Source of the DNA: Prunus persica
Lineage: Eukaryota > Streptophyta > Magnoliopsida > Rosales > Rosaceae
Length of the DNA stretch: 64,000 nt
Assembly: GCF_000346465.2 (NCBI RefSeq)
Contig: NC_034014.1
Span: forward strand, 16,197,505-16,261,504
Direction of reading: 5' to 3'
The notes under the pieces are model-generated. The model was not told where the DNA came from and did no database searches. It worked only from the letters and a program-made list of their open reading frames with translations. The translations under genes were made by a program, and so were the position numbers. Position 1 is the first letter of the stretch. Each line of letters starts with the position of its first letter. Below are positions 7,660 to 63,978 of the stretch, in pieces.

Positions 7660-7931
7660 TGTAATGACCCAAACCTAAAATTCATATTTAATTAGTAATT
7701 TATTATGCGGAAAGACAATTTTGCCTTTGGAATAAATTATGAACGAAAAGTTGACTTTTTGACCGAAAAGGAATTTGACAATTCCACATACACCGTTGCG
7801 TAGAGCACGACGAAATGAGTTCATAGACATAAAGTGAGCTCGAATCGGAGTTTTAACGAAGAAAATGCGATTAAATATCACGAGGGGCAAAATGGTAATT
7901 AGAAAAATCAGATTTTTTTTATATAACCTCA

Positions 7932-8001
<70 letters not shown>

Positions 8002-21382: not shown

Positions 21383-21799
21383 ATTAACTTCTATATAGCC
21401 AAAATTACTAATTCTTTTCTAAGCTGAAACATGAGGGTTTGTGGCTCTATCAGATTCAACCAAAAAGCAAAGGTAAAAGATGACGAAGTTTGTGAGTGAT
21501 AGACAGAGAGAGAAGAAGTAGAGATAAGAAGAGGTGAGGAGAGGAGGGGGTTTCTTTTTTATTTATAAATTTTGAATAATGTTTATATTATATTATATAT
21601 GTATTAATTTAAAATTATTCTTATAAATATCGAGCCAGGTTCGGGGATGGGATGGTAGGAATGCTAATACCATCCCCGCCCCACACCCAGCGGGGATTTT
21701 TAAGATTTAGGGATCCCCGTACCTGATCCCCGTGTTTCCCTGAAATTTCCCCGTATTAGGGTCAGAGACCCGGCCCGACGGGGATTTTTGCCATCCCTA

Positions 21800-22991: not shown

Positions 22992-25412
22992 ATGGCTTAT
23001 GTACCGGCAGCTCTGCTCTTACTCTCTGCTTTAATTGTCTTGATCAATGATAATATTATTGTAAAGGCTGCGAGAAATGAGTCCCATGTCATCAAATTGG
23101 GTTCCTCTCTATCCCCGGATTCTAACCTGAGTTCATGGCTCTCACCTTCTGGCCGGTTTGCCTTTGGTTTCTATCGACAAGGCAGCGGCTTCACTGTTGG
23201 GATATGGCTTGTTAATGACCTTAATCAGACTGAGCAAAGCATAGTCGTCTGGACTGCACGGCGAGATGATCCGCTTGTCTCCTCCAACTCTACGCTACGG
23301 CTAACGGGAGACGGTCTGCTTCTTCAAACTGAGCAAGGTGAACAAGTACCCATTGCCAGTAATTTTTCAACAACAGCAAGTTCAGCTGCTATGCTTGATT
23401 ATGGAAACTTTGTAGTCTATGATAATCGTTCTAAGGTTATCTGGCAGAGCTTTGATTCCCCAACTGATACCATACTGGGGGGTCAAAATCTGACTGCTGG
23501 CACATATTTGGTATCTAGTGTGTCTGCATCCAACCACTTTAGCGGACGATTTTCGCTGCAGATGCAGAGTGATGGAAACCTCGTTTCTTACCCGGTAAAT
23601 ATCTCCAACACTCCCGAAAATGCTTATTGGTCTTCCGGCACTGTTGGTTCCGCGCAACTGCTCAGTCTGAACGCATCAGGTTTTCTCGTTTTGATTCCTG
23701 AAACTGCACATCCCTTGGCCACTGGCTCATACCATGCCCATGATGACGGAACTATTATCCACCGTGCAACGCTGGATGCCGATGGGATTTTCAGATTGTA
23801 CTTGCACAATTACTCTGTGATGAGCCCCAGCTCAAGGGTGTCGATTGTTTGGTCCAATTTGCATAACCAGTGTGAAGTCAAAGGTTTCTGTGGCTTAAAC
23901 AGGTATTGTGCAGTCCTGGAAAAGACGAACAAAACTGAGTGTCAATGTTATCCCGGTTTTGTAATCAACCCCGTTGATATGTTTCCAGGCTGCTATCAGA
24001 ATGCTAGTGACGATGGCTGCACTGGCAATGAAGACCCACGGCTGCGGTACAAGGTAGCTTCTGTCCACAATATATCATGGCCCATTGACCATCCTTATTC
24101 AGTGGTGCCATTGAAGAACCCGCAAGTTTGTAGCGACTCTTGCCTGGAAGACTGTAGTTGTAAGGCAGCGCTATATACTAATGGCAATTGCAACAAATAC
24201 AAGCTACCACTTAGATCTGGTATAAGAAGCCCAGATACAACAGGATTCATCAAGGTAGATGCAACACACAATCTGCAGTTTCACAATCCAATGGCTACCA
24301 GAAATTCGACATTGGTGAAATACGAAACCAAGAATAGTCATGGCTTGATTGTAATTCTTGCTGTGAGTCTGGGTTCCATTGCATGCGTATGTTTTTCCTT
24401 TGCAGTCTCCAGTTTCATCATATACATGCACCGACTTCAGAGGTACAAGAAGCTGTTGGATCATACCAAAGTGGGATTGGCTGAAGAATTGTTCAGTTTA
24501 CAATCGTTTTCTTACACAGAGCTTGAAAACGCAACTCATGGCTTCAAGGAAGAGTTAGGAAGGGGCACTTTTGGAGCTGTTTACAAAGGAACTCTGTCAA
24601 CTAGCAACAAAATTGTTGCTGTTAAAAGGCTCGAGAAAGTTGTGGAAGAAGGAGTGAGGGAATTCAAAGCTGAAATCACTACTATTGGACGAACTCATCA
24701 CAGAAACTTGGTTCAGTTGCTTGGTTTCTGTATCGAAGGCTCCCAAAAGCTTCTTGTATATGAATACATGAGCAGTGGCTCGCTTGCACATCTTCTTTTT
24801 AATAAGGCCGCGACCGTGCGCCCTTCCTGGAGAGAAAGGGTAGGAATTGTGTTGGATGTGGCTAAAGGGGTGCTCTATTTACACGAAGAGTGCGGTGTGC
24901 ATATTATACACTGCAATTTGAAACCCCAAAACATACTTCTGGATCACTCTTGGACTGCCAAGATCTCCGATTTCGGTTTGGCGAGGCTGTTAGTGCCAAA
25001 CGATCAAACAAAAATAGCTGCCGGAGTCGAACAGAGAAGCGGTTACTTGGCACCTGAATGGCAGAAGAACGCCCTGATATCAGTAAAATCAGACATCTAT
25101 AGTTTTGGTATTGTGCTTTTGGAGACTGTATGCTGCAGAAAAAACATAGAGTTAAAAGTTTCAGTTCCAGATGAGATGATTCTTTCTAGTTGGGCATATA
25201 AATGCTTTAAGGCCGGAAAATTATACGAGCTTGTAGAAGATGACGAACAAAATGTGGATTTGAAGACACTAGAAAGAATGGTAAAAGTGGGGCTGTGGTG
25301 TGTTCAGGACGACCCAGCTCTGCGTCCCCTCATGAAGAACGTAATCTTGATGTTGGAAGGGACAACGGATATACCAGTCCCTCCATCTCCAGAGCTTCCC
25401 CAAGCCTGTTGA
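22992..25412 (+). CDS. G-type lectin S-receptor-like kinase copy 2, predicted pseudokinase
   Basis: An intronless 806-residue protein with a signal peptide (about 1-26), a B-lectin region with WQSFDSPTDT near residue 151, EGF-like cysteines from about 294 (CEVKGFCGLNRYC), a PAN-like segment near 380 (CLEDCSC), a membrane helix near 451-478 and a kinase-like domain near 515-795. The glycine loop (GRGTFGAVYKG), the ATP-site Lys (K545) and DFG are intact. The catalytic loop reads HCNLKPQN, with Asn642 where the catalytic Asp should be, and the activation segment reads GVEQRSGYLAPEW rather than the usual GTRGYLAPEW. The open frame shows no decay, so it may be kept as a signalling scaffold or decoy. 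That role is inference. Confidence 0.94.
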   Translation: MAYVPAALLLLSALIVLINDNIIVKAARNESHVIKLGSSLSPDSNLSSWLSPSGRFAFGFYRQGSGFTVGIWLVNDLNQTEQSIVVWTARRDDPLVSSNSTLRLTGDGLLLQTEQGEQVPIASNFSTTASSAAMLDYGNFVVYDNRSKVIWQSFDSPTDTILGGQNLTAGTYLVSSVSASNHFSGRFSLQMQSDGNLVSYPVNISNTPENAYWSSGTVGSAQLLSLNASGFLVLIPETAHPLATGSYHAHDDGTIIHRATLDADGIFRLYLHNYSVMSPSSRVSIVWSNLHNQCEVKGFCGLNRYCAVLEKTNKTECQCYPGFVINPVDMFPGCYQNASDDGCTGNEDPRLRYKVASVHNISWPIDHPYSVVPLKNPQVCSDSCLEDCSCKAALYTNGNCNKYKLPLRSGIRSPDTTGFIKVDATHNLQFHNPMATRNSTLVKYETKNSHGLIVILAVSLGSIACVCFSFAVSSFIIYMHRLQRYKKLLDHTKVGLAEELFSLQSFSYTELENATHGFKEELGRGTFGAVYKGTLSTSNKIVAVKRLEKVVEEGVREFKAEITTIGRTHHRNLVQLLGFCIEGSQKLLVYEYMSSGSLAHLLFNKAATVRPSWRERVGIVLDVAKGVLYLHEECGVHIIHCNLKPQNILLDHSWTAKISDFGLARLLVPNDQTKIAAGVEQRSGYLAPEWQKNALISVKSDIYSFGIVLLETVCCRKNIELKVSVPDEMILSSWAYKCFKAGKLYELVEDDEQNVDLKTLERMVKVGLWCVQDDPALRPLMKNVILMLEGTTDIPVPPSPELPQAC

Positions 25413-29355: not shown

Positions 29356-29579
29356 ATCTTTACTTCGACATTATACAGATAAATGATAAAGCAATATATT
29401 CTGTGTCATGGTAAAGATTAGGATTGCGTGGGTTCTATCATCAGCAATGATTTCATTTGTGGTTGACTCAACAAGAAGACTTGCTCAGTCAACACACCTT
29501 AAAACCACCGTATTTCTCTCTCATGCCCTATCAATTCAAATTAAGGAGTGAAAATAATCCCAGATTTTCATATCTGAGT

Positions 29580-32024
29580 ATGGCTTCCAGTATTCGGATT
29601 GTTGCCTTTCTCCTTTCTGTATTTTCTCTAGGAGGTGAAGGAGCTCGACAAAATAATTCTACCCAACTAATAAGCCCAGGCTCTTCACTTTCTCCCATAA
29701 GTAGCCCAAGCTCATGGCTTTCTCCTTCTGGCCATTTTGCATTTGGGTTTTATAAAAAAGGAGCAGGATTTGCAATCGGAATTTGGCTGGTGGGAACAGA
29801 CAAGCAAACAATTGTCTGGACAGAAAATCGCGACGATCTCCCAGTCACCTCAAATGCAATTCTGCGGTTAACAAGTGACGGCAAGCTTGTTCTAAGTGAT
29901 AGAGAACGACAAAAGAACCTCATCGTCACTACAGGTACTAATTCACCAACGGACTCTGCAGCTTCCTCTGCCTCCATGCTCGACTCTGGAAATTTTGTTC
30001 TGTATAACGGAAGACGCGATGTCATCTGGGAGAGCTTTAATCATCCTACTGATACGATCCTTGGAGGTCAGATTCTGCCTGTTGGGGGTTCACTCATCTC
30101 CAGTCTTTCGGAAAATGACCACTCAACAGGACGGTTCCACCTCAACATGCAGGCTGATGGAAACCTGGTTCTATACTCGGCAAACAGCGAAAACTCGTCT
30201 GCAGATGCCTATTGGAGCTCTGGAACCTATCTCCAACGTCAGCTTCAACTTTATCTTAACGCTACAGGTCGTCTAGTTCTCATCAACAGCACTAGTTGGG
30301 AAGAATCCTATGTTTTAGATTATGATGAATCGTCCAAAACCAACTACAAAAACGGTACCATATATCGTGCGACGCTTGACGTAGATGGAAATTTTCGGTT
30401 GTATTCTCATGAATCTGATGTGAGTACTGGAAAATTCCAGCCATCCCTTATTCTGTGGCAAGCACTGGATGATCCTTGCGATGTTAAAGGCTTCTGTGGC
30501 CTTAACAGCTACTGCACATTTTATGACAATCAACCAAACTGTCTTTGCCTTCCTGGAACAGATTACGCTGACTCCGACCGAAGGATCGTCGGTTGCTTGA
30601 GAAACTATACTAAAGTAGAGTGTAATGATGGGAAAGAAAATACATCAAGTTATCACATGATCACCATGGAGAATATGGTATTGGAAGATATAGTTTACTA
30701 TGAAGCACGAATGCCGACCGTGAAAGAATGCAGCAGGTCTTGTCTGGAAGACTGCAACTGCGGGGCAGCTGTGTTCTACAGTGGGAGTAATGTTTGTGCC
30801 AAACAAAACTTACCACTCAGATATGTCCGAAGGGATCCCAAGGAGTCCAGCACAGCTGTCTTCAAGATCGGCAACATAATAAGTGGTTCCATTGGCAACA
30901 ACCACAACAATACTAATCCAGCCATCCCGCTGAATCCAAATACCACGGTCGTTACTACCACAGACAAGAAGTTGATAAAGCAAATTCTTGTTTTAACTTT
31001 AGCTCTCATCCTATTCTCCTGTGCGGCCCTTGCAGTTTCTGGATTTTACATTTCCAAAATCCGACTTCTGCGGTACAAAAGGCTGACGGAGATTAATGGT
31101 GATTTGGGGTTGGCTGATGAGGAACTTACTTTGAGAGCTTTTTCATACAATGAGCTGAGAAGAGCGACCAATGGGTTCAAAGAAGAATTGGGAAAGGGCT
31201 CGTTTGGAGCAGTTTACAAAGGGGCTTTAAACAAAGGAAAAAAAATCATTGCAGTGAAAAGATTAGAGAAGCTAGTCGAAGAAGGTGAGAGGGAGTTTCG
31301 TGCGGAGATGCAAGCAATCGGAAGAACTCACCACAAGAACTTAGTTCGATTGCTTGGTTACTCTGCCGAGGACTCAAAAAGACTCCTCGTGTATGAATAT
31401 ATGAGCAATGGCTCCCTTGCAGATCTCCTTTTCAGGAATGAATGGAAACCTACTTGGAGTGAAAGAGTGACAATTGCACTCGATGTCGCAAGAGGTCTCC
31501 TCTATCTACATGAAGAGTGTAAGGCCCCTATCATCCATTGCGACATAAAGCCTCAAAACATTCTGATGGATGAATTCTGGAATGCTAAAATCTCTGACTT
31601 TGGACTTGCAAAATTGTTGATGCCGGATCAAACGAGGACTTTCACAGGGGTCAGAGGCACAAGAGGGTACTTGGCACCAGAATGGCAAAAGAACACTCCA
31701 ATCTCAGTGAAGGCAGATGTTTATAGTTACGGAATAGTGCTTCTCGAAATTGTATGTTGCAGGCGGAACATGGACGTCAATGTTAGAGCAGAGGAGATAA
31801 TTCTATCTACTTGGGTCTACAAGTGCTTTGTTGGTAGAGAGCTGCATAAGCTCGTGGGTGGTCAAGAGGTCGATAAAAAGACGTTGGAGAACATGGTTAA
31901 GGTGGGACTATGGTGTATACAAGATGAACCAGCTCTGCGTCCTTCAATGAAGTCTGTTGTGTTGATGTTACAAGGTATTACTGATATAGCTATTCCTCCA
32001 TGTCCAACTGCTACCTCCATGTAA
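29580..32024 (+). CDS. G-type lectin S-receptor-like Ser/Thr kinase (RLK1/LecRK class), copy 3
   Basis: An intronless 814-residue receptor kinase. The frame is open from 29457, but the Met at 29580 starts a proper signal peptide (MASSIRIVAFLLSVFSLGG), whereas the 41 residues upstream are not signal-like, so I chose 29580. The order is a B-lectin region with WESFNHPTDT near residue 150, an EGF-like segment near 299 (CDVKGFCGLNSYC), a PAN-like segment near 383, a Pro/Asn/Thr-rich linker, a membrane helix near 470-492 and a kinase domain near 525-805. The glycine loop (GKGSFGAVYKG), K560, HCD with D655 and SDFGLAK are all intact, so it should be an active non-RD kinase. A CACTA element begins about 460 bp past its stop. 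Confidence 0.95.
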   Translation: MASSIRIVAFLLSVFSLGGEGARQNNSTQLISPGSSLSPISSPSSWLSPSGHFAFGFYKKGAGFAIGIWLVGTDKQTIVWTENRDDLPVTSNAILRLTSDGKLVLSDRERQKNLIVTTGTNSPTDSAASSASMLDSGNFVLYNGRRDVIWESFNHPTDTILGGQILPVGGSLISSLSENDHSTGRFHLNMQADGNLVLYSANSENSSADAYWSSGTYLQRQLQLYLNATGRLVLINSTSWEESYVLDYDESSKTNYKNGTIYRATLDVDGNFRLYSHESDVSTGKFQPSLILWQALDDPCDVKGFCGLNSYCTFYDNQPNCLCLPGTDYADSDRRIVGCLRNYTKVECNDGKENTSSYHMITMENMVLEDIVYYEARMPTVKECSRSCLEDCNCGAAVFYSGSNVCAKQNLPLRYVRRDPKESSTAVFKIGNIISGSIGNNHNNTNPAIPLNPNTTVVTTTDKKLIKQILVLTLALILFSCAALAVSGFYISKIRLLRYKRLTEINGDLGLADEELTLRAFSYNELRRATNGFKEELGKGSFGAVYKGALNKGKKIIAVKRLEKLVEEGEREFRAEMQAIGRTHHKNLVRLLGYSAEDSKRLLVYEYMSNGSLADLLFRNEWKPTWSERVTIALDVARGLLYLHEECKAPIIHCDIKPQNILMDEFWNAKISDFGLAKLLMPDQTRTFTGVRGTRGYLAPEWQKNTPISVKADVYSYGIVLLEIVCCRRNMDVNVRAEEIILSTWVYKCFVGRELHKLVGGQEVDKKTLENMVKVGLWCIQDEPALRPSMKSVVLMLQGITDIAIPPCPTATSM

Positions 32025-48329: not shown

Positions 48330-48890
48330 AGAGAAACTTGAATGCACAAGAATTGTACTGTGGTAGCAAAAACGCTACTGCCACAAAAACACTCGATTAT
48401 ATGGCAACTGCATCTCCACAACGACAAGTATTGCATTGGGATTCAATCTAAAAACTTTTAGACTCATTTTCCATGTATGTAACTCACAAACTTTCATTTC
48501 CATTATCCCCTGAGCTTGTAAAATGTGCATGTCTTCTCAGCACTGTCTTTGTCTTCTTTAACTAAACAAATACTATTTTATTACTTGTCAAAGTGTGGAA
48601 GCTCATAGGAAAGTTATGAGAATGTTAAAGTCAAGGTTTTGAATTAAATTACTATTTAACTACTATAATTCTCTAGAGGGTTCAAGTCGAGGACTGAAAA
48701 TCCTAACTAGAAATAGATGCACAATTTTATAATCCGTTGTTGCATGTTGCATCGTTTGGATGTTGAATAGGAATTTCATAAAATACTACTCTCGGAGCAT
48801 TTTTTTGATGAACTCTTTCTCTTGTTTTTTGTTTTATTTTTCTTCCTGAAGTATACAATAATGCACATGGGATGGGAAAAGAATAAGGAC
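48330..48890. other. intergenic, no gene seen
   Basis: AT-rich sequence of about 560 bp with no supported feature. Confidence 0.4.
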
Positions 48891-48893
48891 TTA

Positions 48894-49136
48894 GGCTCCG
48901 TTTGGTTCATGAAATGAATTTGAGGGGAAATCATTTCCCGTGTCATTCCCCAAGGAATGGAAATGGAAGATTCCTTTCCCACGTTTAGTAATGCTAGGAA
49001 AGTAACCGGGAAATATCACTTTATATCCTTTCCCATGTTTGTTTTGAGTAGAAATGGAAAACAAAGTTCGTATAAAATTTTAATTATACCCATATTAAAT
49101 CAAATAAAAAAAGAATGCATTTAATGATATATTGTA
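48894..49136 (+). mobile_element. left half of a Harbinger-like MITE
   Basis: It starts GGCTCCGTTTGGTTCATG after TTA (48891-48893), the 3-bp duplication of PIF/Harbinger elements. It ends abruptly at TTGTA, where a solo LTR starts. The missing half lies at 58380-58622 in inverted orientation. Confidence 0.75.
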
Positions 49137-51640
49137 TGTAATGACCCAAATTCATATTTAATTAGTAAATTATTATGCGGAAAGACAATTTTGCCCTTTG
49201 ACTCACTTATGAACTCAAAGTTGACTTTTTGACCGAAAAGGAATTTGACAATTCCACATACACCGTTGCGTAGAGCACGACGACACGAGTTCATAGACAC
49301 GAAGTAAGCTCAAATCGGAGTTTAACGACGAAACTACGATTAAAATATCACGAGGGGCAAAATGGTAAATTGGAAAATCAGATTTTATAAAACCTGTTCC
49401 TCTCTCTCTCTCTCTCTTCAGTTCTCTCTCCTCTCTCTCTCCTCCCTCCCGTTGCGCCAGCCACCCTCCTCCCTTCCGATTGAGACAGCGGCCACCACAG
49501 GGCACGCCGATCTCCGGCGTTGGTACCAATAGCTCCACCACACCCTCGCCGTCACGACCTGACCCGTCGCCGCCCCTGCACCGACCGGAGCTCGCCGGGA
49601 TCAGGCGAAAACCGATCGGTTTTCAGTCGAAACTTCAAGCTCCTCGATCTCCTTCGTTTCTCAACCAAATCGTTCGAGTAAGGTATGGTTTCTCAGCTAT
49701 TTTTCATGCTCTAACTGATGGTTGGCTGGGTTTTGATCGATTTTAGCTGTAGATCACTCGATTTTCGAAGTGAAAATCGGCCGAACTTCGGCCTCCGTGA
49801 TCGGCCGTTTCCGGCCACTTTTTGGGGTTAGTCCAAGAACAAAAGTGGTTCCAAATACGGTGTTATACCTAGGATAGGAGTTTGGAGCCTTGGTTTTGAG
49901 ATTTTCCGGCGATGCGTAATCGCTTTGGTTCTGATGCGATCCTTAGGTCGTCACGAGCGCATAAGAATTCGCGGATCTCAATTTGGATACCGTTTGAGCC
50001 TCGAACGGATTTTCCTTATTATGCGATTATCGGGTTCAATACTGTTGAGCCGTTGGATCGTAATCAATTTTAGATATGTTGTTCCAGATAATTTTAGAAA
50101 CGTGTAGGATTCGACGGATTGTGAATCGGAGTCCCGGATACTCCGAAAACGCGAACCCTAGGGCTATGGTTTAGAAATTGTGCGATTACACGATCGTAAT
50201 TAATCCGACCGTCCGATTGACACCAATACCCTCGGGACATGTGTCCTAAATATATTGGACCTTCTAGCGGCATCCGGATCATATTGTACCCGTGGGGTTC
50301 CGGATTGACTTTTTGGACTTTAGCGCTTTTTGAGTCCCAAGATACCACTAAACTATCCCACGTGGAAGGAAAGCTGTTATGGGCATAGGGATCACTTTAA
50401 ATTGACGCACGTACTTTTAGGAGCCGGGGGTAGGGTTTTTAATTTAATACTATATTGTATTAATAGAATATTATGGTCATTGAATCAGGCACCCGGGCAC
50501 CAGTTGACCCGCAGGAGGGACCTTCAAGAGGTCCAGCGAGCTCAGACTACCAGTGAGTGGACTCTTTGTTTTAATAAATGAATTTAAGCAGTTTAGTTTC
50601 AGTTATCAGCTGTTTTATTCTGTAAAATATTTTATGTTGCATGCTGCCGAGTGAAAGTTCCTTTAAAGCATATAGGACAAGATATTCTCGTTAATTATCA
50701 GATAAATAGCAGCAGAATTTTAAAGGTTACATAAAGTTAATTATTCAACAGATTTCCTTCAGAAACTTTATATTTTCTTAAATCACCTTGTACCCAGATA
50801 TTAAATGTTGCCTTCGGATTATATTTGTTGCCTTCGATTTAGTCAGCATGCTTGACAGTTGCCCCACGAGTTCCTTGGTACTGGAACTCGTGTGGAGCGA
50901 GTAATGCGGATAAAGGTGGACTACGGTTCCCTGAATCCTGCGAGTTGCGGCTCGGACTGACTTCGTGTCACTGAGACCTGCGAGTATGTGTCACCCATGG
51001 TGATGCAAGGAATTGACAGATATAAGGATTTGACGGAAATAGGGGTGCACCTAGGTGATAGGTTTCAACTGTTTTCAAATGTATAGTTATATACATGCAT
51101 TGATTTCAGAAATAAAGAAAATAAGCTAGTTTGTATAACTGTTTTTACAGTGGGGTTAGTATGTTCATATAGTATTTTCTAAACTTTGTTTTTGGGTCCA
51201 CTCACCCTTCTTGTTGTTTTGCGCCCCCAGGCAGTAGACGTGCACAGGAATCCACCCCCGGGCCCACTTCCCCATCTTCCGCGCCCTTCTCTGATGTAGG
51301 ATTTGTATTTTGTACACAGATTCACTCTTTTGGTAAATTCTTAGTAGTCGCTCTGATGTTTTGCCCTAGACTGAGCTTTGATCTCTTGTGATGTGTATAT
51401 ATATGTATGCTGGCAGTTGGTTGTATATATATATACTTGTTTTGACAGGTGTAAGATTTTGGTATTGAGCCAGATACAAGGGAAACTCTGCCGGTTTTTC
51501 TGTAGAAGTCAACCTTGTTATTTTTATCATGTATTGTATAGAAGGGCAAATAGGACATTTGTCCCCGACATTCGCCAGGTGTCGGACACACACAGGGTCT
51601 GGCTCGGATTCCAAAGTGGAATTTGGATCGGGTCCTGTCA
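49137..51640 (+). mobile_element. large solo LTR, family A, copy 3 (recombinant)
   Basis: A 2,504-bp LTR from TGTAATGACCC to GGGTCCTGTCA. Its flanks do not match each other: TTGTA at 49132-49136 and ATAGG at 51641-51645. It is near identical to the minus-strand copy at 58623-61187, apart from a 61-bp GC-rich deletion at about 49927. The mismatched flanks pair with those of that other copy, showing that the two LTRs exchanged ends. Confidence 0.9.
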
Positions 51641-51641
51641 A

Positions 51642-51785
51642 TAGGGATGGCAAAAATCTTCGTCGGGCTGGGTCTCCAGCCCTAACGGTGGGAAATTTTA
51701 GGGCAAAACGGGGATTGGGTACAGGGATCCCCAAATCTCGATAATTATAAGATTAATTTTAAATTAATACATATATAATATAGAG
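51642..51785 (-). mobile_element. displaced hAT right end
   Basis: It starts TAGGGATGGCAAAAATC and is collinear with the reverse complement of the hAT right end at 21799 down to about 21590 (GATTAATTTTAAATTAATAC shared with small changes). Its normal flank (CTCTAACATC) is not next to it but at 61193, beyond the other LTR. Confidence 0.8.
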
Positions 51786-51989
51786 AGCTTTAGTTTTGAA
51801 ACACAATATAGTTTACTAATTTGGAAGATGGGAATACAATTTCATCTAATTAGCATAAGGCCGAAGACCAAAATGCAGTATATAATTTTACAAAAACATC
51901 ATTAAAAAATATCAAAATTACACACAATGTCACTCCTTCTAAGGCAAGCATACTATGCCATATATCCATATCCGGCCACCACTGCCATA

Positions 51990-52130
51990 TATCCGTATCC
52001 GGCCACCAATTCCGTTACCCTTTATTCACCTTTAAAAAAAAAGATATTGTGTCATTGAAGGGACTCGAACCTTGATCCTCAAAGGAGGAAGGCTCACTCA
52101 CAAACCACTACACCAAACTTGATTTTGTAA
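51990..52130 (-). mobile_element. possible tRNA-derived SINE with pol III boxes
   Basis: On the minus strand an A-box-like TGGTGTAGTGG (52115-52105) is followed 33 bp later by a perfect B box GGTTCGAGTCC (52071-52061), then a T-rich end. The spacing fits a pol III promoter. No tRNA cloverleaf could be drawn, so a SINE or tRNA relic is more likely than a tRNA gene. Confidence 0.4.
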
Positions 52131-52199
52131 TATTTATTCAGTTATACAATATTTATATAAACAATCAACGGTTTAAAAAACAATCATTTCAATACATAT

Positions 52200-52500
52200 T
52201 CACACAAAAATTGCAAATAAAAACAGAAACTGCAACAAAAATACAATGTAGATATCAATTATGTTTTAAAAAAACAAAAACAAAAAAAAAAACAAAAACA
52301 GCTACAAAAATAAAAATTAATTTTATTGAAGCGAAATGGAGGAACCAAGATGAAAGTACTAAAATGGAAATTATGATGCAGAAATGGAAACTTCAATGCA
52401 TAAACAGAAACTGCAATGCATAAACAAAAAATGCAACATAACTGCAATGCATAAATGGAAACTGCAGTACAAAAATGGAAACGGCAATGCTAAGTTTGGG
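52200..52500. repeat. minisatellite, unit about 18-20 bp
   Basis: Imperfect tandem copies of AACTGCAATGCATAAAC(AG), with A-rich interruptions. The same word recurs as single copies near 52725 and 52885. Confidence 0.7.
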
Positions 52501-55500
52501 AAAAATGACTCAACTCTAAAGTTAAACAAAACGAAACTATATATTTTTATTTATTCAATACATGTTGGTAAAATACTCTGTTTCTGGCAATGCCGTTTCC
52601 AAAACTCAAATTTTGAGTTCCCTTGCTCTGGCCCTCCCAATTCCTTATCTGTGTAGCCTCTACTCTTCAAATTGGTGAGGTTGAAGGCTATGGAAAGAGC
52701 AAAAATCTAATTGTATTTAAATGAAAACTGCAATGCAGTTCCGAAAGTCCAATTTTGAATTCCCTTGCTCTTAGGTAGTTCTACTCTTCTCTTGCCCACC
52801 CAATTCCTCATCTGGGTAGCCTATACTCTTCAAATTGGTGAGGTTGAAGACCAAGAAAAGAGCAAAAATACAATTGTGATTACAAAAATGCAATGCAGTT
52901 TCCAAAACTACAATGCAGAACCTATATAAAATTTCACTAAACTAAAGCTTAAATTGACAGGACCCGACCCAAATTCCACTTTGGAATTCGAGCCGAACCT
53001 TGTGCGTGTCCGACACTTGACGGATGCGGGGCATAAATGACCTATTTGCCCTTCCATTCAAATACAGTTTATCTCAAATTTGACTTATGCCGAAAATTCA
53101 GTAGAGTCTCCCCTGTAAATTGAACATTTCCCAAAATTTTCACATGTAAAACAAGCATAAATATACATACATATAACCCAACTGCCAGCATGCTTTAAAT
53201 TATATCCAAGAAAACAACAGTATATCATTCTGCCCCCAGGGCTTCATAATTCAAGTAAATCATTCTATCACATGGAACTGATTCTAACTTTTAGAACAAC
53301 ATGAACACAATAACATATTCAAAAAAAATGTAGCTGAACCATTTCTCAATCCTTTTTGCCTCGCGGCTGTACCTAGTAATTCTAGGCTGCCTACGTACCC
53401 TCAACTAGGGATCAAGTCACACGTAGTTCTTCTATTCCTGTTCCAAGCTTCTTGGCATTACTCACATGGCAATAACTATATTTAAATAAAGGAATAAAAG
53501 CATTTAGATTCAAGTAATCACTCTTGGAAAGCCATAACTATTAATTCCTCGTGACACCATTGGTGACACGTCCTTCCCTGTAATTCTCGCTGGACTCAGG
53601 AGACATCTGGTCAACCTGATCCGCAATTCTCGCTCCCACGATCCGGATATCTCTAAGACTCGTGGGGCAAAGTATGCTAGAAATACTTGAGTTATTTAAT
53701 ACCATATCCAATACAAAAAAGATAAAGGCAAACAACTTAAATAAAATAAAATAAGATAAATTAAAACAAAACGGATTAAAATAAGATAAAATAAAATAAA
53801 CAAGCTCCGAATACTCTTGTATCAAACTCATGTAAGGTTCATAAATAATTATGTATATATATATATCCGTCTTTCTCTTGTGACATAAATATCTTGATTA
53901 AGAAAATGATAGTAACTGTATGAAGTTCCTCAATTTTACTTTAAAAAAAGCGTTTTAAAGCTTAAATTCTCTCCACTAGGCGTACCCCCATTTTTGATCC
54001 ATCAATTCCTTTAATACCATCAATTCCATCCTCGTAGATCTCGGAAACATAAAGTTAACCGATCCGCATTCCTCGCAGGTCTCGGAGATACCACTTCAAT
54101 CCAAGCCGCATTCCTCGCACCACACAGTTCAGGCGTTTCCGAAACTCGTGGGGCATTATCAAAATAACCAAACTATTTCAAAGTAACTTGGGGGCACCCT
54201 CGTGATGAGTTTGAAAACCATAACCTGGCTTTTATATCAACTTTCAATAAACTTGTTCTCAACTAAACTTAAAATATATATACATTTGTATGCCACAATC
54301 TGATGAAAGCCAAGTGCTATGAGTCATCTTTTTCAACTATTGAATATACATATATTAAACACTTAGCTAGTATGTTAGCCATGTCGATCTTTGATTAACA
54401 TATCGTTCAAATATTATATTAATAATCTTACAACATAATTAACCATATGAATATATAAGCATGTGATAAATCAACATATAATTAAATGCTCAACCTAAAT
54501 TCACATAAAATAAAGAAGGGTAAACTACAGTAAACTCCCCAACCTATAGGGCATTTACGAGTCCATACCCGATTTTGGGGACATTTATGAGTACATACTC
54601 AACGTCGCGGAAAACCTACAATTTGCCCCCCTCCGTTAGCGAGACCCATCAGGAAATCTGTTAAACGCTGACGTGGCGAATGTGGGTTCTATTTTTTAAT
54701 GAGGTGGACTTACAGGTGGACAAATAAATAATAAAAAAATTTATACATGTTAAAAATAAATTTTAAATCATATTAAAATCATTAAAAAATGAAAAGAAAA
54801 AAAAAATCTCCTCTCTTCTCCTACATAGCCAACCCTCTCTCCCACCCGACTCAACCCTACCTCTCAGCCACCCCCCTTTCGTCGCCCACCTCCAAACCCA
54901 ACTCTCTCTCTCTCTCTCTCTCTCTTCTTCTCCCTCCCAACCCACCCCAACTTCTCCAGAAAGCTCATCATTCTTCTCCTCAAATTTAAACCCATTTTAC
55001 AACAACATTAGGAAATACAAATTGTGAAGAAACTTGGAAAAGAAGAATATTGGTAAAGTACTGTGATAGGTTGATTTCCAAATTACCACATTTGAAACAA
55101 GATTAATTTTTGCAGATAATTCCTCTTGATTAATTATCAGTTTCTGGGTAAACTGATAAACCCAAAAACAAGATTAATTTTTGGAACAAAATGATAAAGT
55201 TCAAAGAAACATAAACCTAAAAAAGAACATTGCCTAAAAAGGCATATCCTTCACCAATAACAAACAACTATCAGAACACAAAAAACGCAGATAATTCCTC
55301 AAATTTAAACTCATTTTGCAAATCCTAATATTGTTCTAGCTCCGGTGAGATCTGAAGAACGATGACGAGCTCACGAGGTCTTGAGAACATTCCCCATGGC
55401 GTGTTGCAAAGACCCAACCACCTGGGTTTTGTAGATCAGCCTCATTCATTCTCGACAAGCAGGACCAAGAATGAAATGACGCTGCATCGGCCTTGAAACC

Positions 55501-55540
55501 CTACTCCCTCACTCTCTCCCCGCCACTGCAGTCCTCATCC

Positions 55541-55862
55541 ATGGCCGACCCCTCGCAAAGCCCTAACCCTAAGATCTCGGCCTACTACCAAACCCGGGCG
55601 GCACACCACGGCATCATCACGAGCGACTGGCTGGCCCAGGCTCAAGCTGCCCTCTGCCAAAACCCCAACGAACAAGGTCCAATCGTCGGCAAGGTTGAAG
55701 CCAGACCCGATTCTGCTTCCGGCAAGCCCTTCAGCGTCATCGAGGAGTTCAATAACTAGAGAAAGCAGCCCGATTTGGCCGAGGCTGTGGCAGCGATTCG
55801 GGCATTGGAGTCTGTGATTCGGTCTAGTAAGGCCACCACGATGACGGAGCTCGAAATTGAGC
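55541..55862 (+). pseudogene. captured N-terminal fragment of translation initiation factor eIF2B alpha
   Basis: It begins MADPSQSPNPKISAYYQ and continues HGIITSDWLAQAQAA, FSVIEEFNN and, after a stop, RKQPDLAEAVAAIRALESVI and KATTMTELEIE. This is the N-terminal helical region of plant eIF2B alpha, a subunit of the guanine nucleotide exchange factor for eIF2. A TAG at 55757-55759 sits where the family has Trp (TGG) in NNWRKQP. The similarity ends at ELEIE, then the frame runs into a GA microsatellite and the right inverted repeat. About 107 of some 370 codons are present. Confidence 0.88.
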
Positions 55863-55895
55863 CTGGGGAAGTTCCTTCATGTTCTTGCATTCTTT

Positions 55896-55899
<4 letters not shown>

Positions 55900-55937
<38 letters not shown>
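55900..55937. repeat. (AG)n microsatellite
   Basis: About 38 bp of AG repeats between the captured fragment and the right arm of the Pack-MULE. Confidence 0.9.
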
Positions 55938-55941
<4 letters not shown>

Positions 55942-57677
55942 TTTTTCTTTTTCTTTTGATTTTAAATGAAAATTAATTATTTAATATAATTTTACTTGTT
56001 TTGTATAATTGTTTATTAGTTTTTTGTCCACGTGGAATCCCACGGTAATTAAAAAATGGGTCCCACAAATGCCACATAGGCAGATAACGGATTTTCTGAC
56101 GATCTCGCTAACGGATGGGGCAAATTGTAGGTTTTCCGCGACGTTGAGTATGTACTCATAAATGTCCCTAAAATCGGGCATGGACTTGTAAATGACCCTA
56201 TAGGTTGGGGGGTTTACTGTAGTTTACCCAATAAAGAAATTAAGACCATAAATAAACTAATTGAACACTCTCATGCACATTAACTTTCTAAAAGCTTAAA
56301 CATATTCTATGGAGCTCATCCTCATTATTTAATGCAAAGTCCTGGCACTGGGCTCCTAGAAGTGCGTGCATTGAATTGAAGGTCATTCTCAAGCCTATGT
56401 AAGCTTTTCCACTTATTGGAATGATCTAGAAATGCCTCGGGACTCAAAAGCTATAAGTTCCAAAAAGTCAACCAGGGACCCCGTGGGGTCCACAACCTAA
56501 AATTTTTTGATCCGAGAGTTGCCAGAGGTTCTAACATGCCTAGGACATATGTCCCAAGAGTCTGGTCTCGATCGGACGGTCGGACTACTCACGATCGCAC
56601 GATCTGACGGTTACTGTAGACCCAGCCCTAGCGTTGGCCTTTTCGGAGTATCCGGGACTCCGATTTCACGATCCATTGAATTCTACACAATTCTGGAATT
56701 ACATAGATCAACATATAAGAAATTGACTGCGATCCAACGGTTCAAACGTATCGAACTGAGAAATTGCACAATATGCGAGATCCGTTCGGGGTACAAACAT
56801 TGTCCGAATTGAGATCTGTGAATTCCTACGCGCTCGTGACAGCATAAGGATAATTTTAGAACAAAATTTCGGACCGTCACCCTGTCCACGTGCCAGCAAC
56901 GCGTGGGTGTCTAGATAAATTTCTGTGGCCGGAAAACTTCAAGGTTGAAGGCCAAGCTTCCTATCCTAGGTAAAACACCCTATTTGGAACCACTTTTGTT
57001 CTTGGGCCTAGCCCAAGAAGTGGCCGGAATCGAAGGCCGAAACTGGCCAAAATTTTAATCGCTTAATCAACCAATTAAACGCAAAAATTTCTCAAATATA
57101 ACACAACCAGCAGCTAGAACACGTTGAAAGTATAGAAAATCATACTAAATTCGAAAGATTTGGTGGCCGGAGGCGTTCGAACGAGTTCCCGAAAGTTTAC
57201 TAAAAAAACTGCCCAACACCGCTTGTTACATGGCTGATTCCAGTGACCACATCGGCGGATCAAGACTGGGACCAGTCGAAAATCAAAGAGGGAAGTGAGG
57301 TGATTCTAATGGGACCAGTGCCGCCAAGAAGGGAGGTGTGTGGTGGCGGTGGTGGAGGAGAGAAGTTGGTTGGTCATGAAGCTTCTGAGGAGGGGGAGAA
57401 AATCTGGGTTTTAAAACTAAACTTTGGAATATTTACGGTTATGCCACGGAACTTCTTTTGATCGTAACTTCTTCGTTACAACTCCGTTTTGAGCCCACTA
57501 TGTGTCTACGGACTCATCTCGACGTGCTCTATGCATTAGTATAATTGAAATTTCCAAAATACTTTCCGGTCAAAAAGTCAATTTTTTCCCTAATAATTTA
57601 TTCTAGGGGCAAAATTGTATTTTTCTCTAATAATTTAATAATTAAAAATTAATTAAGGACCGGGTTGTTACATAAAT

Positions 57678-58376
57678 GGCATTACAAAATATCATATGAT
57701 AGTGATGGCATCAACCATTTCCAAATCAAGACAAATGTACAGTAAGTGAGTTTTATAATAAGAAGTTGCAGCTAAATTAGATCATTACCTGACATACATG
57801 CATACATATATTTGATCACAAACTCTCACATTCCAAAGAACCCTAAGATTAAAGTCATACTTTCACTTTAGAATTTTGAAAACTAAATTAAATTAAAATT
57901 CGAGATGGGATGTTACAACATACATGAATTCGATGGTCCAACAGAAGTATCTATGATTACAGTTCATATTAGACAACTTTCTATTCTTCCCTTATGAAAA
58001 GAAATGCTGCAGCAATAGGAAGCAGCTCCATAAACTAAGAAACAAGTCAATATTTACCTACATACTATAAGAGTACAGACTAATGAATAAAAAGTATTTT
58101 GAAAAGCAGAATACCTCTCTGGCAATACCCCATACTTTTTTCATATATAGAACTCAAGGTGTAATGAATTTGCAGCTGCAACCGCAAGATCATATCCAAA
58201 TAACTACAAACAAACACAAAAAACCTAAATTACTAACAAAAAGCAATATGCAGTAACAAAAAGAAAACTAATTTATTAAGCTGCATTAGAGGTTATAGAG
58301 ATGTAAAAACTATATCTGAAGACTAACATTTAGCATATTCAAATGTTTGAAAGTAAATCACAACATTGGCTTAAAC
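57678..58376. other. intergenic, no gene seen
   Basis: About 700 bp of AT-rich sequence lying inside the inverted block. Nothing recognisable. Confidence 0.4.
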
Positions 58377-58379
58377 TAA

Positions 58380-58622
58380 GGCCCCGTTTGATTCATGGTA
58401 AAGGAGACTTGGGAATGGGAAATCAATTGCTTTCCCATGTTTGGTAAGTCTAGGTAAGGGAAATCGTTGCCTAGCTCATGGAAAAGTAGGGGGGAAAGTG
58501 AAGTCATCCACCCAACTTGGGTTTTGTTTTCCCTCCTCATGGGAAAGTTTGGGAAAATAAGCTAACATTAAATACATATTTTTTATGACAATTTTATCCC
58601 CATTAACAATTTAGAATTACAA
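58380..58622 (-). mobile_element. right half of a Harbinger-like MITE, inverted
   Basis: It starts GGCCCCGTTTGATTCATG after TAA (58377-58379), the reverse complement of the TTA beside the left half at 48894. It ends at TACAA, the reverse complement of TTGTA at 49132-49136. Reversed and joined to 48894-49136 it gives a normal MITE of about 0.48 kb with inverted ends. Confidence 0.75.
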
Positions 58623-61187
58623 TGACAGGACCCGATCCAAATTCCACTTTGAAATCTGAGCCAGACCCTGTGTGTGTCCGACACCTGGCGAATGTCGGGC
58701 ACAAATGTCCTATTTGCCCTTCTATACAATACATGATAAAAATAACAAGGTTGACTTCTACCGAAAAACCGGCAGAGTTTCCCTTGTATCTGGCTCAATA
58801 CCAAAATCTTACACCTGTCAAAACAAGTATATATATATACAACCAACTGCCAGCATACATATATATACACATCCCAAGAGATCAAAGCTCAGTCTAGGGC
58901 AAAACATCAGAGCGACTACTAAGAATTTACAAAAGAGTGAATCTGTGTACAAAATACAAATCCTACATCAAAGAAAGGCGCGGAAGATGGGAAGTAGCCG
59001 GTGGTGGATTCCTGTGCACGTCTACTGCCTGGGGGCGCAAAACAATAAGAAGGGTGAGTGGACCCAAAAACAAAGTTTAGAAAATACTATATGAACATAC
59101 TAACCCCACTATAAAAACAGTTATACAAACTAGCTTATTTTCTTTATTTCTGAAATCAATGCATGTATATAACTATACATTTGAAAACAGTTGAAAACTA
59201 TCACCTAGGTGCACCCCTATTTCCGTCAAATCCTTATATCCGTCAATTCCTTGCATCACCATGGGTGACACATACTCGCAGGTCTCAGTGACACGAAGTC
59301 AGTCCGAGCCGCAACTCGCAGGATTCAGGGAACCGTAGTCCACCTTTATCTGCATTACTCGCTCCACACGAGTTCCAGTACCAAGGAACTCGTGGGGCAA
59401 CGGTCAAGCATGCTGACTAAATCGAAGGCAACAAATATAATCCGAAGGCAACATTTAATATCTGGGTACAAGGTGATTTAAGAAAATATAAAGTTTCTGA
59501 AGGAAATCTGTTGAATAATTAACTTTATGTAACCTTTAAAATTCTGCTGCCATTTATCTGATAATTAACGAGAATATCTTGTCCTTTATGCTTTAAAGGA
59601 ACTTTCACTCGGCAGCATGCAACATAAAATATTTTACAGAATAAAACAGCTGATAACTGAAACTAAACTGCTTAAATTCATTTATTAAAACAAAGAGTCC
59701 ACTCACTGGTAGTTTGAGCTCGCTGGACCTCTTGAAGGTCCCTCCTGCGGGTCAACTGGTGCCCGGGTGCCTGATTCAATGACCATAATATTCTATTAAT
59801 ACAATATAGTATTAAATTAAAAACCCTACCCCCGGCTCCTAAAAGTACGTGCGTCAATTTAAAGTGATCCCTATGCCCATAACAGCTTTCCTTCCACGTG
59901 GGATAGTTTAGTGGTATCTTGGGACTCAAAAAGCGCTAAAGTCCAAAAAGTCAATCCGGAACCCCACGGGTACAATATGATCCGGATGCCGCTAGAAGGT
60001 CCAATATATTTAGGACACATGTCCCGAGGGTATTGGTGTCAATCGGACGGTCAGATTAATTACGATCGTGTAATCGCATAATTTCTAAACCCTAGCCCTA
60101 GGGTTCGCGTTTTCGGAGTATCCGGGACTCCGATTCACAATCCGTCGAATCCTACACGTTTCTAAAATTATCTGGAACAACATATCTAAAATTGATTACG
60201 ATCCAACGTCTCAACAGTATTGAACCCTATAATCGCATAATAAGGAAAATTCGTTCGAGGCTCAAACGGTATCCAAATTGAGATCCGCAAATTCCTATGC
60301 GCTCGTGACGACCTAAGGATCGCATCAGAACACAGTGTCACGGCACCACACTCGTCCACGCGCCGCCGCACGCGCCGGCAGCGATGGGTGTCCAAAGCGA
60401 TTACGCATCGCCGGAAAATCTCAAAACCAAGGCTCCAAACTCCTATCCTAGGTATAACACCATATTTGGAACCACTTTTGTTCTTGGACCAACCCCAAAA
60501 AGTGGCCGGAAACGGCCGATCACGGAGGCCGCTGTTCGGCCGATTTTCACTTCGAAAATTGAGTGATCTACAGCTAAAATCGATCAAAACCCAGCCAACC
60601 ATCAGTTAGAGCATAAAAAATAGCTGAGAAACCATACCTTACTCGAACGATTTGGTTGAGAAACGAAGGAGATCGAGGAGCTTGAAGTTTCGACTGAAAA
60701 CCGGTCGGTTTTCGCCTGATCCCGGCGAGCTCCGGTCGGTGCAGGGGCGGCGACGGGTCAGGTCGTGACGGCGAGGGTGTGGCGGAGCTATTGGTACCAA
60801 CGCCGGAGATCGGCGTGCCCTGTGGTGGCCGCTGTCTCAATCGGAAGGGAGGAGGGTGGCTGGCGCGACGGGAGGGAGGAGAGAGAGAGGAGAGAGAACT
60901 GAAGAGAGAGAGAGAGGAACAGGTTTTATAAAATCTGATTTTCCAATTTACCATTTTGCCCCTGGTGATATTTTAATCGTATTTCCGTCGTTAAAACTCC
61001 GATTTGAGCTTACTTCGTGTCTATGAACTCGTGTCGTCGTGCTCTACGCAACGGTGTATGTGGAATTGTCAAATTCCTTTTCGGTCAAAAAGTCAACTTT
61101 GAGTTCATAAGTGAGTCAAAGGGCAAAATTGTCTTTCCGCATAATAATTTACTAATTAAATATGAATTTTAGGTTTGGGTCATTACA
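58623..61187 (-). mobile_element. large solo LTR, family A, copy 5 (recombinant)
   Basis: A 2,565-bp LTR in reverse orientation, from TGACAGGACCC to GGGTCATTACA on the plus strand. Its flanks do not match each other: TACAA (58618-58622) and CCTAC (61188-61192). Reverse-complemented they pair with the flanks of copy 3 (TTGTA, and GTAGG against ATAGG). It is near identical to copy 3 and retains the 61-bp GC-rich segment that copy 3 lacks. Confidence 0.9.
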
Positions 61188-61192
61188 CCTAC

Positions 61193-62245
61193 TCTAACAT
61201 CAATTCCTGACTTTGTCAGTGAAGCTAACTAAGGTGATACCCCCTCCAGCTACTAAGAGGAGCAACAAAAATAATACTCATGCAGTCCTTTTTTATCAAT
61301 GCATGTGAAGCCCAAATTGCTTCCACTTGGCCCATTGTCCATTTACCAAGCATGGGACATTCCACACTTATATGGACCAATCTCTCTCTATTCTACCAAT
61401 GTGGGACAAAGGTGTCTTGGATTTCATTCAAACTTCCAACAATAGTTACTACCAAAACAATTCTCTAAAATGAGGAAATTACCAAAAGCGAATGGGTAAT
61501 GAGTGGAGAGGTCTATGATCTTTTAAGCACTTGATGCAATTTGATCTTCAATTCAGCATACTCTCAACATCGCCTTACATTATTGACTGTATCAAATCAT
61601 TTATTGGGCATCAAAATTTCCTCTACCTCCTCTCTAATTAGAGAGAAAAACATGTATGGAGTTGTTCATACCACGCGGTAATGCCGAGTGATATAATATC
61701 ATCAATCAAATATTGAAATTCTATCATACAATCTTGATACCAATTAAACTGGAACTTGATACCAAACAATCCTTTCCTTACATTTGAAAGATATATACTC
61801 TTTGAAAAATGGCCACCATATGGTCTTTCTTAGCTGAAAGATGGATACCTTTTAGTTGAGAGTAGTGTCCACCATTTGGGCTGTGTATCTTTTTTTACAT
61901 CAAGTTCTATTTGGAGAAAAGACTTTCATGAAATGGGAATAGCATTAGTTTGCTATTATCCCGACTAATGACATTTTGACACGCATGACAACACTTTCAC
62001 ATGACATTATATTATTGGTAAGTATAGCAAAATAGTGATATCACAATTAAATTTGACTGCTGCAAGTACGGACTACTACATTTATTCATTTGGAGGAAAT
62101 TTCCACGGTGTGACCCAGTTGCTCTCACTAATTGCCGTAAATGACAAGACAACATGTAAGTCAAGTCTAACTGATCAGCAGGGACGAAAATAGTTAAATT
62201 GGCCTGGCATTGTAATGCGAAAACGAAGAGTTAAATCTTTGTGAG

Positions 62246-62325
<80 letters not shown>
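61193..62325 (+). repeat. segmental duplication copy B: promoter of lectin kinase copy 4
   Basis: Co-linear with 21801-22991, starting TCTAACATCAATTC in both. It lacks the 0.4-kb insert of copy A and has about 330 bp (roughly 61611-61940) absent from A. A long (TC)n tract (62250-62312) lies just before the start codon, expanded from a short tract in copy A. Confidence 0.8.
62250..62312. repeat. (TC)n microsatellite next to a start codon
   Basis: About 63 bp of CT repeats then (CA)n, ending 4-13 bp before the ATG of lectin kinase copy 4. Confidence 0.95.
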
Positions 62326-62328
<3 letters not shown>

Positions 62329-62346: not shown

Positions 62347-63978
62347 TGCTAAAATATGAAAACTATGAGAGAATATTTGTTTGTGGGAATTTTCTGTGTA
62401 TTCTTCTCCTTGTAGGAGGTCATATTTATAATACAACGAAACCTAAATAGGCAAGTAAATAATAAATTCCTAAATCTATTTGCAGTAGGAAATCAGAAAT
62501 TAAAGTAAATCCATTACAATTATAATAGGAATTCTTGGTGTGTAAGGAAAGTAAGTCAATATCCACAAGTCACGCCAACACTCCCCCTCAGTTGGTGCAT
62601 AGATGTCGCCAATGCCCAACTGATCTAGTGAATTGTGGAATGCTTTACTGGAAATCGCCTTTGTCAAAATATCCGCCAATTGATCCTCGGATTTCACAAA
62701 ATGCGCAATCTGGTCCATGTGTCGGGGTCGTTAATCGAGAAGTCATAATCTGTGCAGCGGAAGATGCATAGGATACAGTTGAGTAGGAATTGGGATCGGA
62801 ATATGAGCCTGAATCGAGGCCGGAGTCAGAGTTGAAATCGGGATCAGGGTCTGAATCAGAGCCAAATTCGAGGTTGGGGTCATCATCGGAGTGGGGGTCG
62901 GGGTCGTCTTCGGAGTCGGGGTCGGGGTCGGGGTCGGGGTCATCAAAAAGGGATCCTGATTCTGGATCGGGTTCGGGGTCAAAGTCTGCATCTGTAGGAG
63001 CGGAGCCATCTGGGCACTCAACTCAATGATGGTTGGTGGAGAATGAGAGAATGAGTCGGTGGTGCTACCTCCATGAGGGTTGAAAAAATCATCAACCCCC
63101 ATAACACTAAATAAAATAATCTCTATTACAATAGGACAAAATATAATTGGTAAGTAACCAAAATTCTAATGAAATAAGGAACCAAAATTCTAACTAAGGA
63201 CTCGCCAACACTTCCCCTCAAGTTGGGCAAAGATATTTCGCACGCTCAACTTGACAAGCGAGTCACAGAACACCATACTTGAGAAGTAACAATTGTAGAG
63301 AAGATCTTTTAGTCAACCACGAGTGAAACAAGTGACAAACTAAAACAAAGTTCACAGCGGAAACACAAGAGCAAACCCTAAAAAATAGGGCACATAGCAA
63401 AACACAGAAATCTTGTGGGCACGGCTGTAGATAAGGCAGAACACCGAAACCCCATGAGCACGGCAGTAGAGACAATGGCAACAATAAATTCTTCCATAGA
63501 AACTTTAGCTAATTCACTCATACACAACTTCTCTTCAATCCTCCTCTCCCCTTGAAGAGAAGGGGTCGTCGGAGTCAAGAAATAAGCAACATCTTCATGG
63601 AAATACGTCAAGGTAATTGGGATAGGTCAATAAACATATCCCTTTCACTTCCCCTCCCCCCCCCTCTCAAGGGGGGAGAAGAGCACTTAAATTTCAAGAA
63701 GAACACAAGCACAGGTCTCTAGATCGAACCTGGCTCTGATACCATGCTAAAATATGAAAACTATGAGAGAATATTTGTTTGTGGGAATTTTCTGTGTATT
63801 CTTCTCCTTGTAGGAGGTCATATTTATAATACAACGAAACCTAAATAGGCAAGTAAATAATAAATTCCTAAATCTATTTGCAGTAGGAAATCAGAAATTA
63901 AAGTAAATCAATTACAATTATAATAGGAATTCTTGGTGTGTAAGGAAAGTAAGTCAATATCCACAAGTCACGCCAACA
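62347..63978 (-). mobile_element. non-autonomous, chimeric Copia element, young
   Basis: LTRs of 234 bp at 62347-62580 and 63745-63978 differ at one position by eye. A perfect 5-bp duplication CAGTT (62342-62346 and 63979-63983) flanks it. On the minus strand it has a primer-binding site (TGGTATCAGAGC, 63744-63733), a gag start (63102-62743, MGVDDFFNPHGGST then Pro/Thr repeats), and only the RNase H tail (LADILTKAIS, about 62680) before the polypurine tract. Most of pol is missing. The LTRs and gag start match the family at 16227-21382. It must rely on enzymes from relatives. Confidence 0.93.
63110..63732 (-). other. foreign leader segment in the young Copia element
   Basis: Between the primer-binding site and gag lies about 0.6 kb absent from the related element at 16227, where gag starts 48 bp after the primer site. 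It contains, on the minus strand, a polypurine-like GAGGGGAAG directly followed by TGTTGGCGAGTCC (about 63223-63200), which looks like the 3' junction of a different Copia element, so the leader seems to be acquired. Confidence 0.6.

Follow-up and report, generated by a model that had tools for sequence, protein, structure and literature searches.

Evidence for a 7-kb inversion between two oppositely oriented solo long terminal repeats in a plant genome

The exchange of target duplications in the course of ectopic recombination has already been described, according to the accessible text of a study on the Galileo-induced inversions 2j, 2q7 and 2z3 in Drosophila buzzatii (PMC2775673). Here we analyse a comparable arrangement in a 64,000-nucleotide stretch of contig NC_034014.1 (positions 16,197,505 to 16,261,504; hereafter the window), in which two solo long terminal repeats (LTRs) of opposite orientation, designated c3 and c5, enclose a segment that has very likely been inverted between them. 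Like c3 and c5, the copies at the breakpoints of inversion 2z3 are opposed and carry exchanged target duplications, and in both cases each unoccupied site holds one target copy and the junctions are without deletion or duplication (PMC2775673, as far as its available text goes); for our locus, the likeness of the unoccupied sites is drawn from relatives and a paralog, not from alleles. Galileo differs in being a DNA transposon, in having chimeric copies that place the exchange within 141 bp and in that non-inverted chromosomes were sequenced (same text, PMC2775673), whereas the present locus comprises plant solo LTRs, spans only 7 kb and offers neither a chimera signal nor an uninverted allele.

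In plants, mismatched duplications of LTR elements have likewise been read as the outcome of inter-element recombination, namely for the chimeric centromeric retrotransposons of maize CEN10; these differ from our locus in that the accessible part of the paper contains no pair with reciprocal flanks enclosing a flipped segment (PMC4806543). Recombination between LTR elements has also been treated in general terms in a paper whose available text is not decisive here (PMC2672092). For peach, probably the species of the window, a structural-variant map reports 156 inversions, including the 1.67-Mb flat-fruit inversion, which is far larger and lies elsewhere on chromosome 6 (27.96-29.63 Mb in the assembly of that study); the accessible text of the map mentions neither this locus nor exchanged LTR duplications (PMC7784018). 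No published description of the locus was found in titles and the openings of abstracts, which is weak evidence of absence. The mechanism is of a known kind, and this inversion would be a further case of it.

Exchanged flanks and the probable older order of the locus

Both c3 and c5 are LTR-like copies that are complete up to their TG...CA ends; as no internal region adjoins either, they are solo LTRs. Together with its flanks, c3 reads TTGTA-TGTAATGACC...CCTGTCA-ATAGG, and c5, in its own direction, reads GTAGG-TGTAATGACC...CCTGTCA-TTGTA. The two flanks of each copy thus agree in one of five bases, for c3 as well as for c5, and the cross-matches between the copies amount to 5/5 and 4/5 bases; among random 5-mers of the window, a 5/5 match combined with a match of at least 4/5 occurs at a rate of 2.5e-5 (200,000 draws). 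A flip of the DNA between the LTRs would leave exactly this arrangement, in that each LTR would then bear one flank from each of two insertions. Each of the four LTR edges is precise, and the alignments run on across both restored sites with nothing deleted or duplicated at the junctions. An earlier reading made from the letters alone (the sequence-only reading) had given the coordinates, orientation, ends and mismatched flanks of both LTRs, all of which were recovered when we rechecked the sequence.

As a control, 15 further copies were fetched by similarity to c3 from the genome searched for relatives (one assembly, 227,527,450 bases in 192 contigs); L070, L071 and L075 were dropped because one of their flanks is internal element sequence. 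Chosen in this way, the control copies are not a random sample. The own duplication is kept at 4/5 or better in all 15 other solo LTRs (12 fetched, three in the window), with 12 at 5/5 and three at 4/5. Ten of the fetched controls reach 5/5, whereas L074 and L078 reach 4/5, the latter with an uncertain 5' end that was placed by a weak motif; those in the window carry TTTTA (7660-10260, 5/5), TAAAT (52955-57672, 5/5) and GGGAA/GGAAA (11082-13567, 4/5).

The second line of evidence is a miniature inverted-repeat transposable element (MITE) whose halves stand next to c3 and c5. Its terminal inverted repeats read GGCTCCGTTTGG... and ...ATCAAACGGGGCC, and from these ends and the duplication only we take it to be PIF/Harbinger-like. 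TTA stands at 48891-48893 and TAA at 58377-58379, so that the older order has TTA on both outer sides of the MITE; similar flanks of TTA type, as judged by eye, occur in many but not all relatives. Using the halves without the 5-bp duplication as queries (48894-49131 and the reverse complement of 58380-58617) and taking the best 40 candidates for each from the genome search, we cut out 60 loci, of which two are the window itself and two are unpaired, the remainder collapsing to 43 distinct two-half elements. In 37 of these 43 relatives the halves lie exactly 5 bp apart; the gap is TTGTA in 32 of them, TTATA in three, and TAGTA and TCGTA in one each. Thus, the halves in the window complement each other as the two pieces of a single kind of MITE, with the break at TTGTA, in agreement with the sequence-only reading, which had described a split element with opposed halves and TTA/TAA on the outside.

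At the other insertion site, a terminal motif begins at 51642 which we take to be of hAT type. It marks a genuine family border, being the exact start of 27 of 39 non-self alignments (from the best 40 of 56 candidates), as had been claimed; the neighbouring flank had been given as CTCTAACATC, which is slightly off, since the CCTAC duplication is followed by TCTAACATC from 61193. In the inverted segment we found neither the other end of this element nor an 8-bp duplication; a single 9-base near match, at 54828, falls inside a nested MULE-like element; the element at 51642 is either truncated or not a complete hAT. A paralogous site at 21589-21895, upstream of the kinase open reading frame 22992-25412, provides the empty counterpart: here the sequence now found at 51642 is contiguous with that now found at 61193, with no LTR in between. 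The aligned pieces are 85% and 96% identical, and the hAT-like part of the paralog holds about 70 bp that are absent from the window copy. The single CCTAT at this empty site suggests that the copy on the c3 side preserves the old target and that the CCTAC on the c5 side is the one that changed. For the sequence immediately left of 48771, BLAST within the window revealed no counterpart near the kinase paralog.

The MITE itself had inserted into an unclassified multicopy element, here termed T, of which 48773-48893 and the reverse complement of 58376-57673 are parts. In two other copies (L084 and L085, at C1:14522484 and C6:8828294) the side ending at 48893 is joined to the side beginning at 58376, with 9 extra bp. 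Within the segment, both TAAAT around an older solo LTR of the same family and the 9-bp duplication AATAAAGAA around the MULE-like element are intact, which indicates that the segment was turned as a single block. The inner sequence of the MULE-like element (54518-56229) resembles, by eye, a captured gene fragment. Taken with the MITE relatives and the empty paralog, the copies of T strongly support the earlier claim that 51641-58622 is flipped with respect to the older order.

Table 1. Features of the locus, in window coordinates.
Feature	Position	Strand	Remarks
Empty-site paralog	21589-21895	+	hAT-like end directly abutting flank; single CCTAT
Host element T, left part (unclassified, multicopy; insertion host of the MITE)	48773-48893	+	start approximate; ends TTA
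MITE left half, PIF/Harbinger-like	48894-49136	+	ends in target copy TTGTA (49132-49136)
Solo LTR c3	49137-51640	+	2504 bp; flanks TTGTA / ATAGG
Longest run of perfect c3/c5 identity	50207-50544	+	338 bp; partner 59715-60052
Segment in reversed orientation compared with the reconstructed older order	51641-58622		6982 bp; true breakpoints somewhere within c3 and c5
ATAGG, target copy from the second LTR insertion	51641-51645	+	letters identical to empty paralog
hAT-like terminal sequence (TAGGGATGGC...) plus adjoining kinase-upstream DNA	51642-51782		matches 21589-21799 in two pieces
Host element T, right part	51786-52954		start approximate; contains one copy of the inner LTR's duplication
Older same-family solo LTR within the inverted segment	52955-57672	-	TAAAT intact on both sides; MULE-like element inserted
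MULE-like element nested in the older solo LTR	54518-56229		about 80-bp terminal inverted repeats; perfect 9-bp duplication AATAAAGAA
Host element T, middle part	57673-58379		ends TAA beside MITE
MITE right half	58380-58622	-	ends in TACAA (58618-58622), complement of TTGTA
Solo LTR c5	58623-61187	-	2565 bp; own-direction flanks GTAGG / TTGTA
CCTAC, other target copy from the second insertion	61188-61192	+	one base differs from the paralog's CCTAT
Upstream region of receptor-kinase gene (ATG 62326)	61193-62325	+	matches 21796-22985 in pieces

The LTR family and the search for a crossover point

In relatives of c3 and c5, the LTR is followed by ACTTGGTATCAGAGC, which resembles the start of a primer-binding site (L070, L071), and is directly preceded by the polypurine-like GGGGGTAGGT (L070, L075). 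One full-length relative, located on C3, is bordered externally by TAAAA at either end (L087 and L075), and part of its interior (L089) encodes zf-CCHC, RVP_2 and RVT_1 in that order, the protease immediately preceding the reverse transcriptase. The family thus fits Ty3/Gypsy-like elements, judged by this domain order. At G000:C4:7943968-7952871, two LTRs of the family are 99.8% alike and each is followed by primer-binding-site-like sequence, so that this array probably continues LTR-internal-LTR-internal.

In the alignment of c3 and c5, 41 of the 2496 ungapped sites are substituted (25 transitions and 16 transversions; K80 0.0166). There are also six gaps, including two where c3 is missing 7 and 61 bp. 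The two copies are 98.4% identical, and their identity to 16 other copies is at most 91.2%. Sister copies that are 97-99% alike on different chromosomes occur in the family, so that the identity of c3 and c5 alone is not unusual; what is unusual is the closeness of the two sites. Since inversion by recombination requires a close pair of similar copies, this proximity is partly a matter of ascertainment. The divergence of 1.66% dates the common source of the two LTRs, not the inversion. Six substitutions fall within 35 bp of c3 near the 3' end of the LTR (51257-51291), five of them to C, either because mutations clustered locally or because the sequence contains an error. The stretch 49640-50140 is a mosaic common to both copies: among the best 40 of 1997 candidates, c5 alone matches both parts, at 98%, the other matches reach 89-96% over the first 289 bp and 72-83% over the remainder, and C2:9916592 spans the whole at 79%.

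To locate the crossover by aligning c3 and c5 base by base, as the sequence-only reading had proposed, we polarised their differences against the 16 other copies, compared the copies in 150-bp steps and computed FastTree trees by segment (with L078 in the tree of the last 400 bp only). No crossover point was found. The copies c3 and c5 group together with a local support of 1.0 over the whole length, of 1.0, 0.996 and 0.99 in the three thirds and of 0.946 in the last 400 bp. Of the 41 substituted sites, 27 have a state that none of the 16 other copies shows, and at the remaining 14 both states are present elsewhere. Because c3 and c5 stay together in every third and so many sites have an unmatched state, the crossover cannot be placed. 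In 4 of the 17 steps (starting at 900, 1350, 1950 and 2100), some other copy equals or exceeds the closeness of c3 and c5 to each other; the last of these steps contains a cluster of changes in c3. From the alignment, the 338-bp run of perfect identity would be a plausible crossover site. Gene conversion is a possible source of the similarity between c3 and c5; the 150-bp steps and segment trees revealed no clear edge of a conversion tract at either LTR end.

Probable recombination between inverted LTRs and its alternatives

We consider it highly probable that the locus arose by two LTR insertions, their reduction to solo LTRs and an inversion by recombination within the inverted repeats. Two Ty3/Gypsy-like elements of one small lineage would have inserted in opposite orientation at sites some 7 kb from each other, the first into the MITE at TTGTA and the second at the edge of the hAT-like element upstream of a receptor-kinase gene at CCTAT. 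Each would then have been reduced to a solo LTR, after which homologous recombination between the inverted 2.5-kb LTRs would have flipped the intervening DNA. The exchanged duplications, the restored MITE, the empty paralogous site and the restored host element are plain to see in the sequence. The crossover within the LTRs, its timing relative to solo formation and the presence of the inversion in the plant beyond the assembly are inferred. Recombination between inverted repeats explains the locus most simply, and c3 and c5, as a 98.4% identical pair with a 338-bp perfect run, are a good substrate for it.

Several observations weigh against this account. The second duplication matches at 4/5 bases only, and six of the 43 MITE relatives are without the exact 5-bp gap, the aligned ends of their halves being slightly shifted or missing. 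The copies of T have 9 bp at the MITE site that are missing from the window, and the match to the other side adjoins only two of seven non-self matches to the left end (query 522-641), the other five having no adjacent match among 40 scored candidates. Neither a consistent switch of affinity nor a chimeric structure was seen in c3 and c5 (against the 16 copies, in the steps and the trees of the thirds). Finally, the older order is known from relatives and paralogs, not from alleles, and the data are one assembly without reads.

The last point bears on an alternative that we regard as unlikely, namely that the plant is uninverted and that the 7-kb segment was misjoined between the inverted, near-identical LTRs. 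A misjoin at inverted repeats would yield precisely the pattern of c3 and c5. According to the accessible part of a paper on maize, re-sequencing of a centromere corrected errors of the reference assembly at five elements with mismatched duplications and at five solo LTRs (PMC4806543), and the available text on the newer 'Lovell 2D' assembly reports, without locations, 10 inversions relative to v2.0 (PMC13269891). On the other side, the window is free of N gaps, and about 44 events over 2.5 kb distinguish c3 from c5, with no identical run longer than 338 bp. A typical Sanger read is longer than this. Sanger reads could thus in principle be phased through each LTR, which lowers the chance of a misjoin without removing it; as the accessible text states, a doubled haploid was Sanger-sequenced for peach v2.0 (PMC5346207), which applies here provided that the window belongs to that assembly. 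The sequence-only reading had called an inversion by LTR crossover proved; of this, the inversion stands as strongly supported, and the crossover is an inferred step, with a misjoin of 98.4% identical repeats as a possible alternative.

A second alternative dispenses with the crossover. Two LTR ends of copies at the MITE site, or the outward LTR ends of a single element, would have attacked the site at the hAT edge, about 7 kb away, and the LTR integrase would have produced the inversion and its own 5-bp duplication in one step, i.e. a reversed-ends transposition of a retrotransposon. The flank pattern expected from such a hybrid-element insertion is identical to that of recombination and, by the logic of the Galileo study, exchanged duplications by themselves are compatible with it; the model predicts two identical, non-chimeric copies (PMC2775673, accessible text). 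In line with this prediction, c3 and c5 are each other's closest copies overall and in the tree of each third, and, among the candidates scored, only c5 closely matches c3 across the border of the mosaic. The reversed-ends model is, however, described for cut-and-paste transposons, and the loss of the internal region from both copies demands extra steps. LTR integrase acts on free complementary DNA ends, and we know of no case of hybrid-element insertion by such an enzyme. For an LTR element we therefore judge this route very unlikely.

The weakest alternative, that the flanks of two solo LTRs were altered independently and match crosswise by coincidence, is scarcely credible: some solo LTRs do lose their duplications by illegitimate recombination, and short AT-rich duplications look alike, both cross-matches reaching at least 4/5 in 8 of the 136 pairs among the 17 LTRs, but c3 and c5 are the sole pair of these eight that matches crosswise only, each copy matching itself in the other seven, and the evidence from the MITE, the host element and the paralog reconstitutes both junctions with little reliance on the 5-bp motifs, so that the MITE relatives and the empty paralog practically refute it.

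The receptor-kinase neighbourhood

Three long frames with B_lectin and kinase domains lie in the window (132-2471 on the minus strand; 22992-25409 and 29451-32021 on the plus strand), and a fourth B_lectin/kinase gene starts with the ATG at 62326, the rest of its frame lying to the right of the window end (L088:432-2894). A 1632-bp element at 62347-63978, with direct terminal repeats of about 234 bp (TG...CA, 234 of 235 bases alike) and the 5-bp duplication CAGTT, begins 21 bp past the first base of this ATG and cuts off the first seven codons of the fourth gene from the rest. One end of the inversion lies 1.1 kb upstream of this lectin-type receptor-kinase start codon, and the promoter neighbourhood of the gene may have changed as a result.

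Since the exchanged duplications, the split MITE, the split host element and the empty paralog agree, a single genome suffices to reconstruct the arrangement that preceded the event. The locus is a well-documented case of a probable small inversion in a plant. Being 98% identical and inverted at a distance of 7 kb, c3 and c5 could flip the segment again, so that the inversion could be recurrent. The locus thus provides a clear example of a known way in which mobile DNA rearranges chromosomes.

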